Shown one piece after another: positions 42,696-49,824 of a stretch of DNA of 64,000 nt. The notes under the pieces were generated by a model. That model was not told the DNA's origin. It searched no databases and saw nothing but the letters and a program-made list of their open reading frames with translations. The translations under genes were made by a program, and so were the position numbers. Source of the stretch: Jannaschia helgolandensis (lineage in GTDB: Bacteria > Pseudomonadota > Alphaproteobacteria > Rhodobacterales > Rhodobacteraceae); contig NZ_FNZQ01000007.1 of the NCBI RefSeq assembly GCF_900109285.1, forward strand, positions 1 to 64,000. The letters are read 5' to 3'. Within the stretch, counting starts at the first letter, position 1; every line of letters begins with the position of its first letter.

Positions 42696-43577
42696 TCACA
42701 ATTCCGATGCCCAGGGCGGGTTGGCCCCGGCCCGAGACACGGTAATCGCGGCGGCGGCGACGCCCAGTTCCAGCGCGGCGCGCAGGTCGCCGTCCGACGG
42801 GGCCTGCTTGCCCAAAACACCCGCACGATGCAGCCCGGCGAGGAAGCCCGCATTGAACGTATCACCCGCACCGACGGTATCGACGACCTCCACCCTGTGG
42901 GCGGGGACACGGACCTCTGCCTCGCGGGTGATCGCACGCACGCCCGCCGCGCCTTCTGTCAGGCACAGGATGCGTGCCCCCGCGTCCAGAACCTCGTCGG
43001 GCGTCATGCCCAGCCAGTCGATGTCGACATCCGACAGCTTGACCACATCCGCCACGGCCAGAAGCCGGTCGAGACGGGCGCGGAAGACCTGGGCATCGCG
43101 GATGAAGCCGGGGCGGATGTTCGGGTCGATCATGACCGGAAGATGCGCATTCGTGAGGGTCAACGCTTCATACGCCCGCGCGCAGGGTTCCACCGCAAGG
43201 CTGATGCCGCCGATGAACAGCGCGGTGATGCCGCCCATGTCCGGCGCATTCTCGGGCGATAGCATGCGGCCCGCAGTGCCTTCGTCATAGAACGCGTATT
43301 CGGCGTGGCCATCGGTCAGCGTCACGAAAGCCAGTGTCGTGGGCCGGTCGCTGATCGCGGCGCGGTTTTGGACGTTGGACGCCGACAGCGCGTCAGACAG
43401 ACGCACGCCGAACAGGTCCGACGACAGGCCGGTGTGCAGGGCGACCGGCGCACCAAGACGACCCAATGCGATCGCGGTATTGAAGACCGCGCCCCCGGTC
43501 GCAGGGTAGAACCCCGGTCCATCGGAGGTTTCGCGGGGCAGCATGTCGATCAGGGCTTCGCCCGCACAAAGGATCAT
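42696..43577 (-). CDS. PfkB-family carbohydrate kinase (fructokinase-like)
   Basis: 293-aa ribokinase-family kinase. The N-terminal sugar site is [16 protein letters not shown] with [15 protein letters not shown]; the C-terminal signature is [19 protein letters not shown] with the catalytic Asp and anion hole. Fructose is the likely but unproven substrate. The ATG at 43577 is chosen because the conserved start lies there. Confidence 0.87.
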
Positions 43578-43603
43578 CGGCTTGGTCTTCCTGTTGGGGT
43601 TGC

Positions 43604-44728
43604 CTACTTGGACTGGGCCGCGATGTAGCCCACGATTGCCGCCACGATCAACGCGGCAATGGTGGCGAATGCGATCTTCCATTTGGAATAGGGCCGTTCG
43701 CCCTGCACCCGCCCGGTCTGGCCGTTGACCACGAAGCGATAGGATTGGCCGCTGTATTTATAGGCTGCGACCCAGACCGGCAGCAGGACATGCTTGAAGG
43801 TGACGTCCGACATGCGTGTGTCAATCCGGTCAATTCGCTGCTGGTCGCCGCCGATGTCCATTCTTACGTCACGGGCGATGACAGCATCCATATGGGCGCG
43901 GGCCTCGGTCAATCCGTCTTCCAGCGTTATGCGATAGGCTTCGGCCCGGAACCCGGCCAGGTATTGCGGCGCATAGGGCGAGAGGGCGGACATGTCCCAG
44001 GGCTGCAGGCCGTCGGTATGACTCTTTGGCAGCGATGATGAGGCGAGGATGACGACGTCGTCGAAAAACCGTGCAACCCGTCCCCGGCGCGGGCTCCAAC
44101 GGATCCTGGGCACCTGAACGCGGGTCGGCTTGCCATCCCGCATCACCGTCTGCGTGACGTAATAGGTGTCGCCGCGTTGCCCGGAATAGCTGCTCTCGGT
44201 CTGGGCATCGAACGTCCAGAAGGGGACATAGACGCCTGTCATCCTGCGTCCCTTGCGGGCGTATTTCTGCAAACCGTTGGGCGCAAACCACAGGCTGCCC
44301 AGCCAGTCATTCATCGCGACATGCGCCTGTCGTTCCTCGAATGCAAAGGGGATCACGGCGGCGGGTTTGATATGGCGGTTGATCCCTGTGCCGGTCACTA
44401 TGGGAGTTGCGCAGAACGGACACTCGGCGGCATGGATGGCGGGGTCGAATTCGATCTGCGCGCCGCAGTTGGGACAATCGAGGACGCGCGTCTCCTCCTG
44501 TTCGGCACCGTCCGCATTCAGACCGCGTTCGATGGCGATCTCGCGGATCGTGTCTCGTAACTGGGGCAGGGGTGTCGTGTTGCCACAATAGTCGCAGATC
44601 ATCTGGTTGTTACCGGGATCGAACCGCATGTCGCTGCCGCAATTATCGCAGGGGAAGCGATGTTCCTCGGTCTTTGGAACTTCGGGCGGCCGCGGTGGGG
44701 TGTCGCGACGAACGGTCGGGATTTTCAC
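43604..44728 (-). CDS. Zinc-ribbon membrane protein (YdjG-like)
   Basis: 374-aa protein. Two N-terminal zinc ribbons are visible: CDNCG with CDYCG (about residues 21-43) and CPNCG with CPFC (about 74-96). A long central domain rich in Trp/Tyr follows (PFWTFDAQTESSYSGQRGD), then a C-terminal membrane helix (about 350-370). The layout recalls Bacillus YdjG of the PspA-linked ydjFGHI locus. The GTG at 44728 overlaps the cytochrome b561 gene stop. Confidence 0.7.
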   Translation of the reverse strand: MKIPTVRRDTPPRPPEVPKTEEHRFPCDNCGSDMRFDPGNNQMICDYCGNTTPLPQLRDTIREIAIERGLNADGAEQEETRVLDCPNCGAQIEFDPAIHAAECPFCATPIVTGTGINRHIKPAAVIPFAFEERQAHVAMNDWLGSLWFAPNGLQKYARKGRRMTGVYVPFWTFDAQTESSYSGQRGDTYYVTQTVMRDGKPTRVQVPRIRWSPRRGRVARFFDDVVILASSSLPKSHTDGLQPWDMSALSPYAPQYLAGFRAEAYRITLEDGLTEARAHMDAVIARDVRMDIGGDQQRIDRIDTRMSDVTFKHVLLPVWVAAYKYSGQSYRFVVNGQTGRVQGERPYSKWKIAFATIAALIVAAIVGYIAAQSK

Positions 44729-45270
44729 AGAAACCTCTGCATCATTTTGGGCACCATGATCCGCAGCGCATTGTCGTGCAGCGCATAGTGGCGCCAGATA
44801 TGATAGAGCGCGTGGAAGCCGACAACGACAGCGAGCGCGTAGAATTCCAGCGAATGCAGCGTTCCGACCCAGGCATTCGCGTCCGGCAGGCCCAAAGGCG
44901 GCGCAATCGGCAGAATGGTCCCGGCGAACAATACACGACTGGCGGTCAGGCCCAGCAGAAACCCGGTGAAGGCAACCCCGAACAGGCCCCATATGAGAGT
45001 CAGATGCAATGGTCTATGAATCCGCCGCGCTGCCCCCCGTAGTTTGGGTCCGGGACGGGAGGCGAGACCCTGTACCAGAAAAGACGCAGTCCAGATCAGG
45101 CATATCGTCACGAACACCAGCCCGAATACGGAATGCAGGGTCACGGCCCAATCGCCCCACCGCGCCACATCGCGAGGTTGCACCAGCAAGAACCAAATCA
45201 AGAACGGCAGAACGGACCAATGAAGAACCTTCAGCCATGTGCGCCGGGCGGGGAGGGATATGCGTTTCAT
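44725..45270 (-). CDS. Cytochrome b561-family membrane protein
   Basis: 181-aa four-helix di-haem type protein. Candidate haem ligands are in LKVLHWSVLP, VTLHSVFGL, TLHSLEFYAL and GFHALYHIWRH. It would move electrons in the cytoplasmic membrane. It overlaps the zinc-ribbon gene by GTGA and may be part of the same transcript. Confidence 0.82.
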   Translation of the reverse strand: MKRISLPARRTWLKVLHWSVLPFLIWFLLVQPRDVARWGDWAVTLHSVFGLVFVTICLIWTASFLVQGLASRPGPKLRGAARRIHRPLHLTLIWGLFGVAFTGFLLGLTASRVLFAGTILPIAPPLGLPDANAWVGTLHSLEFYALAVVVGFHALYHIWRHYALHDNALRIMVPKMMQRFL

Positions 45271-45290
45271 CGCGGTTGCCGCACTGACTT

Positions 45291-45330
45291 CAGAGGGGCG
45301 AGGGGCCAGCCCCTCGCGCTCCCCGGAATA
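45291..45330. repeat. Palindrome plus CCCCGGAATATTTT-type tail
   Basis: GCGAGGGG (45298-45305) pairs with CCCCTCGC (45310-45317), and GCTCCCCGGAATATTTT follows. Similar strings of a GC-rich palindrome followed by a CGG-TATTT tail are, from memory, frequent between genes in Rhodobacterales. It lies between the SPFH gene stop and the cytochrome b561 start (gap 45271-45399). Confidence 0.5.
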
Positions 45331-45399
45331 TTTTCAGAGCAAAGACTGGAGACAGGTTCTGTATGACAGTGAAGCGAGAACGTCGGTCCTGTATCGTCA

Positions 45400-46509
45400 T
45401 CACGCACCGGGCGGGGGTGGGGGCATGACCGTGAAAAGCTGCGCCAGCTCGTCCACGTCATCGGCCGTTTTCCAGCCGTCCTGACCCTGGGTCCAGACCA
45501 TCGTTTCGCGCTTGACCTCACCCTCGGCGACCATGCGGCCCAGTCGTGCCTTGCTGAACGGGCCCTTGCTCTTTCCGCCTTCGGCGATATGCCAGACATG
45601 TTCTACGGGCGGCGGTGGCGGCGGCGGAGCGGCCGGGGCCTGCGCCGGTCGCGCGCCCCAGGGGCCCGATTGCATCATATTACCCATCGCCATGCCCATT
45701 CCGGCACCAAGACCCATGCCCATCCCCGAATTCGGCGTCGTCGCGGCGTCCTGCATCGCCTCGGCGGTGGCATATTGCTGATACTTGTTCAGATCGCCCA
45801 GCACGCCCATCGAGGTGCGCTTGTCCAGGGCCTCCTCGACCGCGGGCGGAAGCGAGATGTTCTCGACATAGAGTTCCGGCACGACCAATCCGTATTCTGC
45901 TGTGGTCGCGCTGATCTGTTCGGCGATGATGCGGCCCAGATCGTCGGTGTTCGCCGCCATGTCGAGGACGGGAATGCGACTGCCGGCCAGCGCGCGCGAT
46001 GCGGACTGTACGATCATGTTGCGGATCTGGAACTGGATCTCGTCGCGGGTGAACTCACCGTCAGTGCCGACGATTTCGGTCAGGAAGCGGCCCGGATCGG
46101 CGATCTTGATTGCATAGGTGCCGAAGGCGCGCAGGCGGACGGGACCGAATTCCGGGTCGCGCAGGGTAATCGGGTTCTTGGTGCCCCATTTCAGGTCCGT
46201 CATCCGCGTGGTCGAGACGAAATAGATCTCGGATTTGAAGGGCGATTTGAAACCGTGATCCCAATGCTGCAACGACGTCATGACCGGCATGTTGTTGGTT
46301 TCCAACATATACAGACCGGGCAGGAACACGTCGGCCAGCTGACCTTCGTGGACAAAGACGGCGGCCTGACCTTCGCGGACCGTCAGTTTGGCACCGTACT
46401 TGATTTCATTGCCCTGCCGCTCGAACCGATAGACGAGGGTGTCACGGGTGTCGTCCGTCCATTCGATGACGTCGATGAACTGGCCGGAGAGGAAATCGAG
46501 GATGGACAT
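45400..46509 (-). CDS. SPFH-domain protein with C-terminal GYF_2 domain
   Basis: 369-aa protein of the 'virion core'/YdjI-like SPFH group, membrane scaffold proteins. The SPFH part spans about residues 25-240 (QAAVFVHEGQLADVFLPGLY, GTDGEFTRDEIQFQIRNM). A Gly/Met-rich linker and a poly-proline tract follow, then a GYF_2-like domain (WHIAEGGKSKGPFSKARLG, about 308-355). Its partners in this locus include the zinc-ribbon protein. No PspA gene is present in the window. Confidence 0.82.
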   Translation of the reverse strand: MSILDFLSGQFIDVIEWTDDTRDTLVYRFERQGNEIKYGAKLTVREGQAAVFVHEGQLADVFLPGLYMLETNNMPVMTSLQHWDHGFKSPFKSEIYFVSTTRMTDLKWGTKNPITLRDPEFGPVRLRAFGTYAIKIADPGRFLTEIVGTDGEFTRDEIQFQIRNMIVQSASRALAGSRIPVLDMAANTDDLGRIIAEQISATTAEYGLVVPELYVENISLPPAVEEALDKRTSMGVLGDLNKYQQYATAEAMQDAATTPNSGMGMGLGAGMGMAMGNMMQSGPWGARPAQAPAAPPPPPPPVEHVWHIAEGGKSKGPFSKARLGRMVAEGEVKRETMVWTQGQDGWKTADDVDELAQLFTVMPPPPPGA

Positions 46510-46673
46510 GAAGTGTTCCTTCGGAAGGGTCGGTCTGTATGATCCAGATGGGGATTATGGTCTCTGGTTCCATACCCGACTTCGGGCAGAGCGGCGCGAT
46601 AAAATCCGCGACAGGACCATATGACCCGACCGCATGACCGAAACCGGGAGGTATGCGAAAAGCCTTCCGGACA

Positions 46674-47630
46674 TCAGACCGGGTCCGAGCCGACAAGCTG
46701 CGCCGCGATTCGCTGGACGATGGGGCGTGCTTCCTCGGCCGTCATGCCGACGCGCAACCGACGATCATACAAAATCTTGAGCAGCAGTTCGTCGTGCCGT
46801 GTGAGAAGCGCAAATTCCTCGTCGTCGTTGAAGATCGACGGGCGCACCTGTGGGTTGTCGTTTGCGAGGCCCAGGCCCTGGACGATTTCCTCCTGATAGC
46901 ACGACTGCCGGAACAGGTTGGGATGTTCGGATCGCACCAGGGCAATGGCCGAGACATATGCATTCGGCTGATCTGAGGACGACGAGGCATAGACCGCGCA
47001 ATAGGTATTGCGGTTCAGCGATGTGATGTCCCGCACGGTCTGTCGCGACAGGCCCGGTTCTGCGGCCATGATCTGCGGCCCGAGCTTGCGCTGTTCGTCG
47101 ATCGAGGCGACGAAGACGTGAAAGTTCCCGTTGCTGGCCACGACATCGATGGGGTGCCCGGCCGCCCGGCGCAAGCGGCGGACATAGGCTTCGATCCGTC
47201 TGCGATCCGCCTCTTTCACGGCGTCCGGAACCGAGGCTCCGAAGTGCAGTTCAATGCGAACGGGCTTTTCCCACCGTCGCAATTGCGCGCGGCTTTGCTG
47301 CGCCACATACCGCCCGCCCATCTGGGTATATTCGGAAAACAGGGCGATCCGTTCGAAGTTGCGGGCCAGGTCCGCAGCACTGAACGCGGTCCCGGCACCG
47401 CCGTCCTGACGCAGCAGGCCTTGTGCAACGAGCCGCTGTTCCAGCCGCGCATAAAACAGGGACAGTGCCCTGCTTTCTTCCGATTGGCCAACAGTCATTG
47501 CAGCGACCGCAACAGGTGCCGCGGGCGGTCGGATCGACGTTTCCGGCCCGGCGGATGTATCGAGCGAAGACTCGCAGGCGGTCACTGCAAGGACCATCAT
47601 CAGGGCCGGCAAGAGGCGAAGACCGTTCAT
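46674..47630 (-). CDS. DUF2927 lipoprotein
   Basis: 318-aa lipoprotein: MNGLRLLPALMMVLAVTAC ends in a lipobox cysteine. The DUF2927 region starts RRWEKPVRIELHFGASVP and includes RRAAGHPIDVVASNGN and a later Cys pair region (CAVYAS, QSCYQEE). Function unknown. The ATG at 47630 overlaps the telA stop (ATGA). Confidence 0.82.
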   Translation of the reverse strand: MNGLRLLPALMMVLAVTACESSLDTSAGPETSIRPPAAPVAVAAMTVGQSEESRALSLFYARLEQRLVAQGLLRQDGGAGTAFSAADLARNFERIALFSEYTQMGGRYVAQQSRAQLRRWEKPVRIELHFGASVPDAVKEADRRRIEAYVRRLRRAAGHPIDVVASNGNFHVFVASIDEQRKLGPQIMAAEPGLSRQTVRDITSLNRNTYCAVYASSSSDQPNAYVSAIALVRSEHPNLFRQSCYQEEIVQGLGLANDNPQVRPSIFNDDEEFALLTRHDELLLKILYDRRLRVGMTAEEARPIVQRIAAQLVGSDPV

Positions 47631-48823
47631 CAGGAGTTCGGAACCGCAGAGCCTGCGGTGTCGCCGACCTTGTCCTTGCGCGCGCTGGCAGAAGCGAGCG
47701 TCGTGCGAAGTTCCTTTTCCATCTGCTCCAGCTCTTTTTCGGCCTCGGCGCGGCGGGCCTTGCCTTCGTCGGCAATCTGCAGGCTTTCCTCGATGGTAGC
47801 GACCAGATCCTCGTTGGCCTGACGGACGGCGGCAATGTCGAAGACGCCGCGCTCCATCTCGGTGCGGACGACCTTGTTGGCATCGCGCAGGTTCCGGGCG
47901 TTCGCGGTCAGCAACTCGTTGGTAAGGTCGTTTGCATCGCGGACGGCTTCGGCCGCCTCGCGGGAGCGTTGGATCGTGACCGCCTGCGCCAGCTGAGTTT
48001 CCCAAAGCGGCACGGTATTCACGAGGGTGGAATTGATCTTGGTGACAAGGCTTTTGTCGTTTTCCTGCACCAGCCGGATCGACGGCAGCGATTGCATCGT
48101 CACCTGCCGGGTCAGTTTCAGGTCGTGCACCCGGCGTTCGAGATCGTCGCGCGCGGCACGCAGGTCGCGCAGTTCCTGCGACCCGATCATCTTGTCATCC
48201 TCGTGCAGGGCCTCGACCTGGGTTTCCTTTGCCGGGATGGTTGTGGCGTCCAGATCGGCGAGCTTGGCTTCGCCCGCGCTGATATACAGCCCCAGCTCCT
48301 CATAGAAATCGAGCGTCTTTTCATAGAGCTTGTCCAGGGATTTGATGTCCTTGAGCAGTACATGCTCGTGCTTGAGCAGGTCATCGGTCACCTTGTCGAT
48401 CTGGCCTTGCACGTTCTCGAACTTGGCGATGAAATTCGAGAACGGTGCAGCCCGGCCCAACAGCTTCTCCCACCACGACCGCTTGCGGCGCACGTCCAGC
48501 TCCGACACGGAAAATCCGCGAATTGTGGACACGATGTTGCGCAGACTGTCGCCCGCCGGGCCGACGTCCTTGTTCTTCACATCCGTCAGCATGGCCTGCG
48601 AAATCTGCTGCAACTCGGCCTGCGCGTTCGACCCGAAGCTGATGATCGACTGGGTGTTGGTCATGTCCAACTCGTCCATGCGACGACGGATTTCGGCGGC
48701 AACCGGCGCGTCGGCCTTCTCCAGCGGCACGATCTCCGTACCCGGCTCGGGCAGGGCGACGGCAGCAACCTGATCGATTTCGGCTGTGATTTCAGCGGCC
48801 TTCTGGCGCGTAACGGTATCCAT
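47630..48823 (-). CDS. telA: TelA-family toxic anion resistance protein
   Basis: 397-aa cytoplasmic helical/coiled-coil protein of the TelA/YaaN family, linked to tellurite and membrane-stress resistance in other bacteria. Typical blocks are GRAAPFSNFIAKFENVQGQID, HEHVLLKDIKSLDKLYEKT, and LPSIRLVQENDKSLVTKIN. It begins 3 nt after xpaC, as the xpaC-yaaN pair does in Bacillus. Confidence 0.88.
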   Translation of the reverse strand: MDTVTRQKAAEITAEIDQVAAVALPEPGTEIVPLEKADAPVAAEIRRRMDELDMTNTQSIISFGSNAQAELQQISQAMLTDVKNKDVGPAGDSLRNIVSTIRGFSVSELDVRRKRSWWEKLLGRAAPFSNFIAKFENVQGQIDKVTDDLLKHEHVLLKDIKSLDKLYEKTLDFYEELGLYISAGEAKLADLDATTIPAKETQVEALHEDDKMIGSQELRDLRAARDDLERRVHDLKLTRQVTMQSLPSIRLVQENDKSLVTKINSTLVNTVPLWETQLAQAVTIQRSREAAEAVRDANDLTNELLTANARNLRDANKVVRTEMERGVFDIAAVRQANEDLVATIEESLQIADEGKARRAEAEKELEQMEKELRTTLASASARKDKVGDTAGSAVPNS

Positions 48824-48826
48824 GTA

Positions 48827-49726
48827 TCAGTCTCCGGTTGGCAGGCCGTCCGCTTTCAGACGGTCCCGCAGAACTTCGATCTCGACATCCAGATCGGTGC
48901 GATCCGAGATCAGCAGCGTTTCGCGCTTGGCCTCGATCCCGCGCTCCAGGTCGTCGAGCAGGTTGAAATAATCCGCTTTCACATCGGCATCCTTGCGGGC
49001 GGCATAAAGGTCGGCGAACTTCACCGTCGCGTCACGCGCACCCATCAGGTAGACGCCCAGGAATTTGCGTGCCGAGGTCAGATCGCGGGGGTCGTCCTCG
49101 ACCGTGCGGAACATCTCGCGGGCCTTGGCCGACAGGCTGGCGACACGCGCCGTCGCCTCGCGGTCGCGGGCGCGCAACACGGCGTCGTTCATCGCGGTCA
49201 GGTGCTTTTCCGCCTCGGCAATGGAACGGGCGACCCGTTCAGTCTGGAACGTATCGACGCCTTCCATCCCCTTGTCGGACATCGGGTCCAAACCGAACGA
49301 TACGATGTGCAAGACACCCGCCACGACGCCATACACCAGTCCGGACAACAGCCCCGACAGGCCGGACGCGGTGGCCAATGCGACGCCGATGCCCAAGACC
49401 ACTGCGCCGAAAATCTTGCGTGGCACCGCGGGGCGGCGGGCGATGCGGCGTTCGGCCCAGGCGGCCTCGGCCTTCAGGCCTTCGCGGGTCAGCACGGCAC
49501 CGCCGAAGATCGCGGCGGCCGCGGCAAGGTTCATCGCCAGGCCAACCGGTCCGGGTTGTCCAAACGCAAAAATCACGGGTATCACGGACAAGGCCATCAA
49601 AATGGTCGTGCGGGCACGTCCCCTCAGCGGCGATTTCAGGGTCGGTGCGGGTGACGTCGTGATTTTGCCACGTGCATCCGTCTTTTGCCCCGTGGGACTG
49701 AATTCACCGCCAAACCGTTGCGCCAT
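48827..49726 (-). CDS. XpaC-like protein
   Basis: 299-aa member of the 5-bromo-4-chloroindolyl phosphate hydrolysis (XpaC) family. Three hydrophobic segments lie in the N-terminal half (about residues 43-60, 66-83 and 105-140). A cytoplasmic helical domain follows (MSDKGMEGVDTF, AREMFRTVEDDPRDLTSARKF). It is adjacent to TelA, the usual partner. The biochemical role is unknown. Confidence 0.8.
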   Translation of the reverse strand: MAQRFGGEFSPTGQKTDARGKITTSPAPTLKSPLRGRARTTILMALSVIPVIFAFGQPGPVGLAMNLAAAAAIFGGAVLTREGLKAEAAWAERRIARRPAVPRKIFGAVVLGIGVALATASGLSGLLSGLVYGVVAGVLHIVSFGLDPMSDKGMEGVDTFQTERVARSIAEAEKHLTAMNDAVLRARDREATARVASLSAKAREMFRTVEDDPRDLTSARKFLGVYLMGARDATVKFADLYAARKDADVKADYFNLLDDLERGIEAKRETLLISDRTDLDVEIEVLRDRLKADGLPTGD

Positions 49727-49728
49727 AC

Positions 49729-49824
49729 CTAAAGCCCCCCGCCGTCGAGCATCCCGACGCCCGCCAGGGCGACCAGAACCGCAAGCGCGGCGAAGGCAAT
49801 CTTCTGCAGTCCCGGCGAACCCAT
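49729..49824 (-). CDS. 31-aa membrane peptide before xpaC
   Basis: Short ORF starting MGSPGLQKIAFAAL and ending GVGMLDGGGL. Nearly the whole length is one hydrophobic helix. GGGGGAAG lies 6 nt upstream of the ATG, and the stop is 2 nt before the xpaC start, both supporting translation. No family recognised. Confidence 0.6.
   Translation of the reverse strand: MGSPGLQKIAFAALAVLVALAGVGMLDGGGL

Follow-up and report, generated by a model that had tools for sequence, protein, structure and literature searches.

Jannaschia helgolandensis, a member of the Rhodobacterales, carries a cluster of seven genes in the stretch of DNA analysed here (contig NZ_FNZQ01000007.1, positions 1 to 64,000; hereafter the window, 64,000 nucleotides (nt) long). 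The cluster joins two halves, one formed by xpaC and telA and the other by an SPFH-domain gene and a zinc-ribbon gene, and the link between them is strongly conserved across the order, far above chance. Both halves are known in kind, and what is new here is a micropeptide that accompanies XpaC. The 31-residue open reading frame (ORF) that opens the cluster encodes, as judged from its sequence, a micropeptide that crosses the membrane once; it is conserved, evolves under purifying selection and is tied to xpaC.

Layout and conservation of the cluster

ORF calls place all seven genes on the minus strand of the window, from 49824 down to 43604, in the single direction that the original prediction had described. 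The first, recognised as an ORF and by its translation, encodes the predicted membrane micropeptide (MGSPGLQKIAFAALAVLVALAGVGMLDGGGL, 49729..49824). It is followed after 2 nt by the gene for an XpaC-family membrane protein of 299 residues (48827..49726; PF10112, E 3.9e-27) and, after a further 3 nt, by that for a TelA/YaaN-family protein of 397 residues (47630..48823; PF05816, E 3.1e-105). telA overlaps by 1 nt (TGATG) with the gene for a DUF2927 lipoprotein of 318 residues (46674..47630; PF11150, E 4.3e-60). A gap of 164 nt leads to the gene for a 369-residue SPFH (band 7) protein with a C-terminal GYF domain and a proline-rich tail (45400..46509; PF13421, E 2.9e-99 and PF14237, E 8.4e-20), and a gap of 129 nt to that for a cytochrome b561-type membrane protein of 181 residues (44725..45270; PF01292, prokaryotic cytochrome b561, E 4.5e-9). 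The last gene overlaps the b561 gene by 4 nt at a GTGA start and encodes a double zinc-ribbon protein of 374 residues (43604..44728, GTG start). These distances agree with the original prediction except that it gave the telA/DUF2927 junction as ATGA and the DUF2927/SPFH gap as 165 nt. The Pfam matches of XpaC, TelA, DUF2927, SPFH, GYF and b561 all exceed the curated cut-offs. For the zinc-ribbon protein, which carries two CxxC...CxxC pairs as well as a hydrophobic segment at its C-terminus, neither Pfam nor NCBIfam gave anything over cut-off, and its assignment rests on context and a tblastn match (26.7% over 86% of the length) to a protein of Enterococcus whose gene is flanked by SPFH and TPM genes. 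The genome (3.56 Mb, completeness 99.6%) has a single XpaC match (search at E 0.01) and a single TelA match (E 0.001). Among the best 80 of 579 named TelA loci, the four closest are from Jannaschia, led by J. rubra at 86%.

We assessed conservation in a sample of 101 Rhodobacterales genomes. TelA was matched in 100 of them, only distantly in G085. Stretches around telA were taken from 60 genomes, so that each of the 53 genera with a match was represented, and the G085 locus was then dropped, leaving 59 loci from 52 genera. The 80 named loci served as a second set, which may share organisms with the first, so that the two are not independent. All five genes of the order core (xpaC, telA, DUF2927, SPFH and zinc ribbon) are present at 48 of the 59 loci and at 72 of the 80. 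Taken singly, xpaC is found around telA at 56 of the 59 loci, DUF2927 at 57, SPFH at 58 and the zinc ribbon at 53; three of the 11 incomplete loci (L046, L071, L083) come from stretches that stop at a contig end. In whole-genome searches SPFH and the zinc ribbon were each found in 98/101 genomes, and both are missing from the same three (G011, G081, G085). In 97 of the 98 carriers no more than 5 kb separates SPFH from telA. The zinc ribbon lies within 5 kb of SPFH on the same contig in 86/98, and in five more (G017, G064, G067, G076, G098) the two are on separate contigs, with positions at or close to contig ends. The original prediction had placed both halves together and made its claim depend on conserved linkage in related genomes, which is what we find.

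At one locus (L088:11404-13368) the SPFH and zinc-ribbon proteins are fused in a single ORF of 654 residues, in which no GYF domain is evident by sequence, without a Pfam scan. The cluster can also be carried on a plasmid, as in L208 (CP038202.1, the 1.46-Mb plasmid pFER4 of Paracoccus ferrooxidans), whose PLSDB gene table gives a 453-nt hypothetical gene at the expected place of xpaC and does not list the micropeptide.

The module exists without PspA, as had been proposed for the window. A search for PspA (PF04012) found no match in the J. helgolandensis genome and matches in 38 of the 101 order genomes (37 over cut-off), leaving 63 without one. All 38 also have SPFH and the zinc ribbon, and 60 of the 98 carriers have no PspA match.

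The micropeptide and its tie to xpaC

A short hydrophobic ORF, mostly of 27-31 residues, was found by script directly before xpaC at 129 of 134 loci, with the order consensus MSGTGLQKIAFVLLLVLILGVATGWLGGL. Two of the five misses (L044, L091) do show the peptide, two (L105, L133) show the start of a longer, two-segment form seen at some loci, and the fifth (L122) is interrupted by a contig end. The script chose the wrong ORF at some loci (L040, L049, L058, L064). An earlier chance control (96/111) counted only xpaC starts near the chosen ORF and was not independent. We therefore repeated the count with a fixed rule that avoids this, requiring an ATG start, 22-35 residues, a hydrophobic sequence and an end between -5 and +12 nt from a possible start. 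Such a peptide precedes 105 of 124 xpaC genes (48/56 and 57/68 in the two sets), but only one of 609 other genes, which comprise the rest of the cluster and pfkB. Across the same DNA there are 2,927 ORFs of at least 150 residues, and 13 of them have such a peptide by this rule.

The pattern of substitution marks the peptide as a conserved coding sequence. The ratio of nonsynonymous to synonymous differences (pN/pS) in the peptide's own frame is 0.30 among nine Jannaschia-group sequences and 0.20 among ten Ruegeria-group sequences, whereas the other frames give 1.3-2.7. In wider sets it is 0.45 and 0.60, against 1.05-1.57. Six rows (L040, L049, L058, L064, L120, L127) were left out of this test.

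The peptide also stays with xpaC when xpaC moves or is doubled. In genus g7 it stands upstream of the relocated xpaC in 5/5 genomes (three telA loci read, coordinates obtained for all five), visible in plain translation though missed by the hydropathy filter; the gene after the relocated xpaC is presumably truA. Four loci (L049, L058, L064, L091) have two xpaC copies, each with its own short membrane ORF, that of the second copy being a two-segment form of 65-66 residues upstream of the normal peptide-xpaC pair. A second xpaC match was also seen at 8 of the 80 named loci.

Occurrence outside the order and variable members

Beyond the Rhodobacterales, TelA was matched in 25 of 241 genomes of the class, four of them from the window's own family. 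We fetched 19 of 22 telA places in other alphaproteobacteria, omitting three below cut-off, and found the xpaC-telA-SPFH-zinc ribbon core at four of them, in three families. At the level of the phylum, 65 of 299 genomes match TelA, and 13 further telA stretches were fetched. In one of these, L191, a divergent SPFH-GYF gene comes after xpaC-telA. The class of G489, which is not that of the window and which we guess to be Gammaproteobacteria, gave XpaC profile matches in 13 of 185 genomes. In its 14 loci (these 13 and L191), xpaC is followed by telA at all 14, SPFH is present at ten (two divergent) and the zinc ribbon at six, the contig stopping before the zinc-ribbon position in L233 and L234. 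In L191 and L245 the divergent SPFH-like gene after telA is short with a GYF-like C-terminus, and is itself followed by genes that look by eye like lytic transglycosylases, a hint of a cell-wall link.

A short transmembrane ORF precedes xpaC at 13 of these 14 loci, in L234 and L245 only through a TTG or GTG start; in L242 it is seen weakly. Among the four alphaproteobacterial core loci, L176 has such an ORF, L175 and L179 have one some 70 nt ahead of the XpaC match, and in L178 none was seen; none was found before xpaC at five alphaproteobacterial loci that lack SPFH (L172, L180, L182, L186, L193). A single family spanning the peptides of the two classes was rejected, with an hhalign probability of 3%. 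The order-peptide profile placed 0/14 peptides of the G489 class above the 99th percentile of shuffled sequences, and the reverse search 10/123. We therefore treat the two sets of peptides as equivalents by position and predicted topology only.

Several members vary or stand apart. In 51 of 57 relatives the DUF2927 protein shows a lipobox-like pattern, and the family has a C-terminal consensus, C.HEE.AQGLGLaNDS (CYQEEIVQGLGLANDN in the window copy), which we take to be a degenerate zincin-like motif. HExxH is absent, since the consensus C.HEE.AQGLGL lacks the second histidine and the window copy lacks the first as well. Together, the lipobox-like pattern and the degenerate motif make a binding protein more likely than a cutting one. 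The original prediction counted this lipoprotein as a part, which holds at 57 of 59 order loci; the four alphaproteobacterial core loci gave no hidden Markov model match to it (E 0.001), and this distribution rules it out as a core part beyond the order.

Cytochrome b561 is optional and not core. It occurs at 15 of 59 loci (nine at 45% identity or more) and at 25 of 80 named loci (with a model from eight sequences), and the slot between SPFH and the zinc ribbon holds unrelated ORFs elsewhere. That distribution excludes it from the core and leaves the haem-based redox link proposed originally unsupported. Directly behind the zinc-ribbon gene and in the same direction lies a pfkB-type sugar kinase gene (42696-43682, minus strand); 29 of 59 relatives have such a kinase close to the cluster, where it may be a passenger or a partner.

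GYF domains bind proline-rich motifs. A proline-rich pattern lies in the final 25 residues of the SPFH protein in 56 of 57 relatives, and the presence of both on one protein suggests head-to-tail contacts.

A consensus scan of the locus for promoters and terminators gave no more matches than shuffled sequence. In 40 of 129 upstream regions of relatives (for example L130, L151, L160), TTCCCCCTAG stands 52-82 nt upstream of the peptide start. Elsewhere it occurs four times in 4.5 million strand-bases, and two of those four precede a true peptide at mis-assigned loci. A second box like CCTAARTTT accompanies 38 of 46 first-box sites, always at a spacing of 28 nt and never at another. The full bipartite pattern gave 32 matches in 28 of the 101 genomes; 19 matches are no more than 3 kb from telA and 13 lie elsewhere. 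A reversed control gave four. The pattern appears promoter-like; neither the window nor its genus has it, and it describes relatives only. It was also seen before YcjX-like (DUF463) genes in L249 (G030) and L260 (G046); YcjX is, we assume, a GTPase linked to psp. A shared YcjX regulon was considered and rejected, as 30 further YcjX loci lack the element and only some have an ordinary -10-like box (in one scan the motif used located just 8 of 32 loci).

Function of the module and competing explanations

Relatives of both halves have been described in stress responses, and it is because of them that we propose a stress role. In Bacillus subtilis, xpaC-yaaN belongs to the core and pspA-ydjGHI to the secondary sigma-W regulon, as separate operons, according to the regulon description in PMC3498285; this matches the separate occurrence in Bacillus noted in the original prediction. 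The ydjGHI and yaaN rows follow sigW and rsiW in the overproduced-protein table of PMC3514339. In L. lactis, overproduction of membrane proteins raises an XpaC-like gene (10.3) and telA1 (3.44), as reported in PMC3139573. PspA foci require YdjI, and the membrane localisation of both requires YdjG/H, as stated in PMC8581546. According to PMC12791056, a Listeria telA mutant has a sensitivity raised 4-fold for nisin and 2-fold for tellurite.

The cluster resembles these systems in part. Like pspA-ydjG-ydjH-ydjI, it has an SPFH protein with a zinc-ribbon membrane partner (here with the b561 gene in between), and the Enterococcus homologue of the zinc-ribbon protein, set between SPFH and TPM genes, recalls the YdjI-YdjG-YdjH arrangement. 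It differs in having no PspA match in its genome, in adding xpaC, telA, the micropeptide and a GYF domain on SPFH, and in showing no TPM/YdjH family match among the seven window proteins, which the search covered (Pfam, E 0.1). As in B. subtilis (NZ_AP028965.1), xpaC stands directly before telA, and the TelA proteins are 35% identical over 83%; unlike in the window, the B. subtilis xpaC has csfB upstream and no preceding transmembrane peptide, and the stretch read there has no SPFH or zinc-ribbon gene. The expected logic, small membrane parts with a peripheral inner-membrane protein, would be that of Psp, again without a PspA match in the genome. TelA and XpaC have no occurrences in the main text of a 2024 survey of Psp partners (PMC11237479). 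Our literature search found no paper joining XpaC, TelA and SPFH, none on DUF2927, and none with the XpaC and TelA product names together. In PADLOC the zinc ribbon alone among the seven proteins drew a match, a weak one (PDC-S64, E 0.0079).

We lean towards the reading that the locus is one PspA-independent module that watches over and maintains the inner membrane, with the micropeptide and XpaC as its small membrane unit. At the inner face, TelA would dock on XpaC. There the SPFH-GYF protein, itself soluble, would be recruited to the membrane and oligomerise, perhaps by binding of GYF domains to the proline-rich tails of adjacent copies, and the zinc-ribbon protein, anchored by its C-terminal helix, would be its partner and possibly a metal or redox sensor. 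In the Rhodobacterales the DUF2927 lipoprotein may add a non-cytoplasmic arm. By analogy with YdjI, YdjG and YdjH of B. subtilis, XpaC and the peptide would be the anchor and TelA would take the place of PspA. A more specific proposal, which we offer tentatively and expect may well not hold, makes the micropeptide a dedicated XpaC subunit and gives the Proteobacteria, in peptide-XpaC-TelA, a second machine for membrane repair that does without PspA. In it the peptide would gate or sense through XpaC, TelA would assemble in a PspA-like manner on the inner face, and the SPFH-GYF and zinc-ribbon proteins would organise the site.

Several observations weigh against a single module. The parts of the cluster are separable: 15 of the 19 fetched alphaproteobacterial telA loci have no SPFH link, and four of the 14 loci in the G489 class show xpaC-telA with no SPFH beside it. 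Within the order, the zinc ribbon is elsewhere in 7/98 genomes (G007, G009, G029, G069, G079, G021, G044), G048 has telA and SPFH on separate contigs (the exception to their close spacing), G081 retains xpaC-telA without the other half, and all five genomes of g7 have xpaC away from telA. Coexistence of module and PspA in 38 genomes also means that TelA is no simple PspA replacement. Profile searches of solved structures found no convincing relative for TelA (only chance matches, best E 0.056) or XpaC (best E 0.0029, the helical protein sohair), and nothing useful for the zinc ribbon and DUF2927. Two independent stress units, micropeptide-XpaC-TelA and SPFH-zinc ribbon, sharing an operon or a stimulus and forming no common complex, would account for such separations, as they would for the SPFH-zinc ribbon pairs without telA in L204, L205 and on plasmids of Vibrio, Comamonas and Tsukamurella, and for the halves in B. 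subtilis being separate operons of one regulon (PMC3498285). We nevertheless regard this as rather unlikely, because the adjacency persists not just across the order but also in some other alphaproteobacteria and in the G489 class, which exceeds what sharing a regulon needs.

The remaining alternatives appear less probable still. The family name of TelA (PF05816) and the twofold tellurite effect in Listeria would fit a locus for resistance to tellurite or toxic anions, but the nisin effect described in the same study is larger (PMC12791056), the presence of SPFH, zinc-ribbon and micropeptide partners suggests a membrane role, and a cluster near universal in the order sample is unlike a niche resistance; we judge this explanation improbable. 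We give as little credence to the 31-residue ORF being a leader that tunes xpaC translation and makes no working protein. It mostly ends a few nt from xpaC, a layout that permits translational coupling; yet a leader needs neither the hydrophobicity nor the in-frame sequence kept across genera, longer two-segment forms exist, and duplicates vary in length while keeping the membrane segment. A membrane redox complex using cytochrome b561 is very improbable: the b561 gene does overlap the start of the zinc-ribbon gene in the window, but b561 goes undetected at 44 of 59 and 55 of 80 loci, and other loci have unrelated ORFs in its slot.

On the preferred reading of a single module, the 63 of 101 Rhodobacterales without a PspA match would have a candidate guard of the inner membrane in this cluster, whose SPFH and zinc-ribbon half is present in 98 of the 101 genomes. 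XpaC, whose Pfam name derives from an artificial phosphate substrate, gains a candidate partner in a conserved micropeptide that goes unlisted in one annotated relative (L208). If the tentative repair-machine proposal is true, a near-universal stress system of the Rhodobacterales would have been overlooked, in part because its first gene is too short for annotation.

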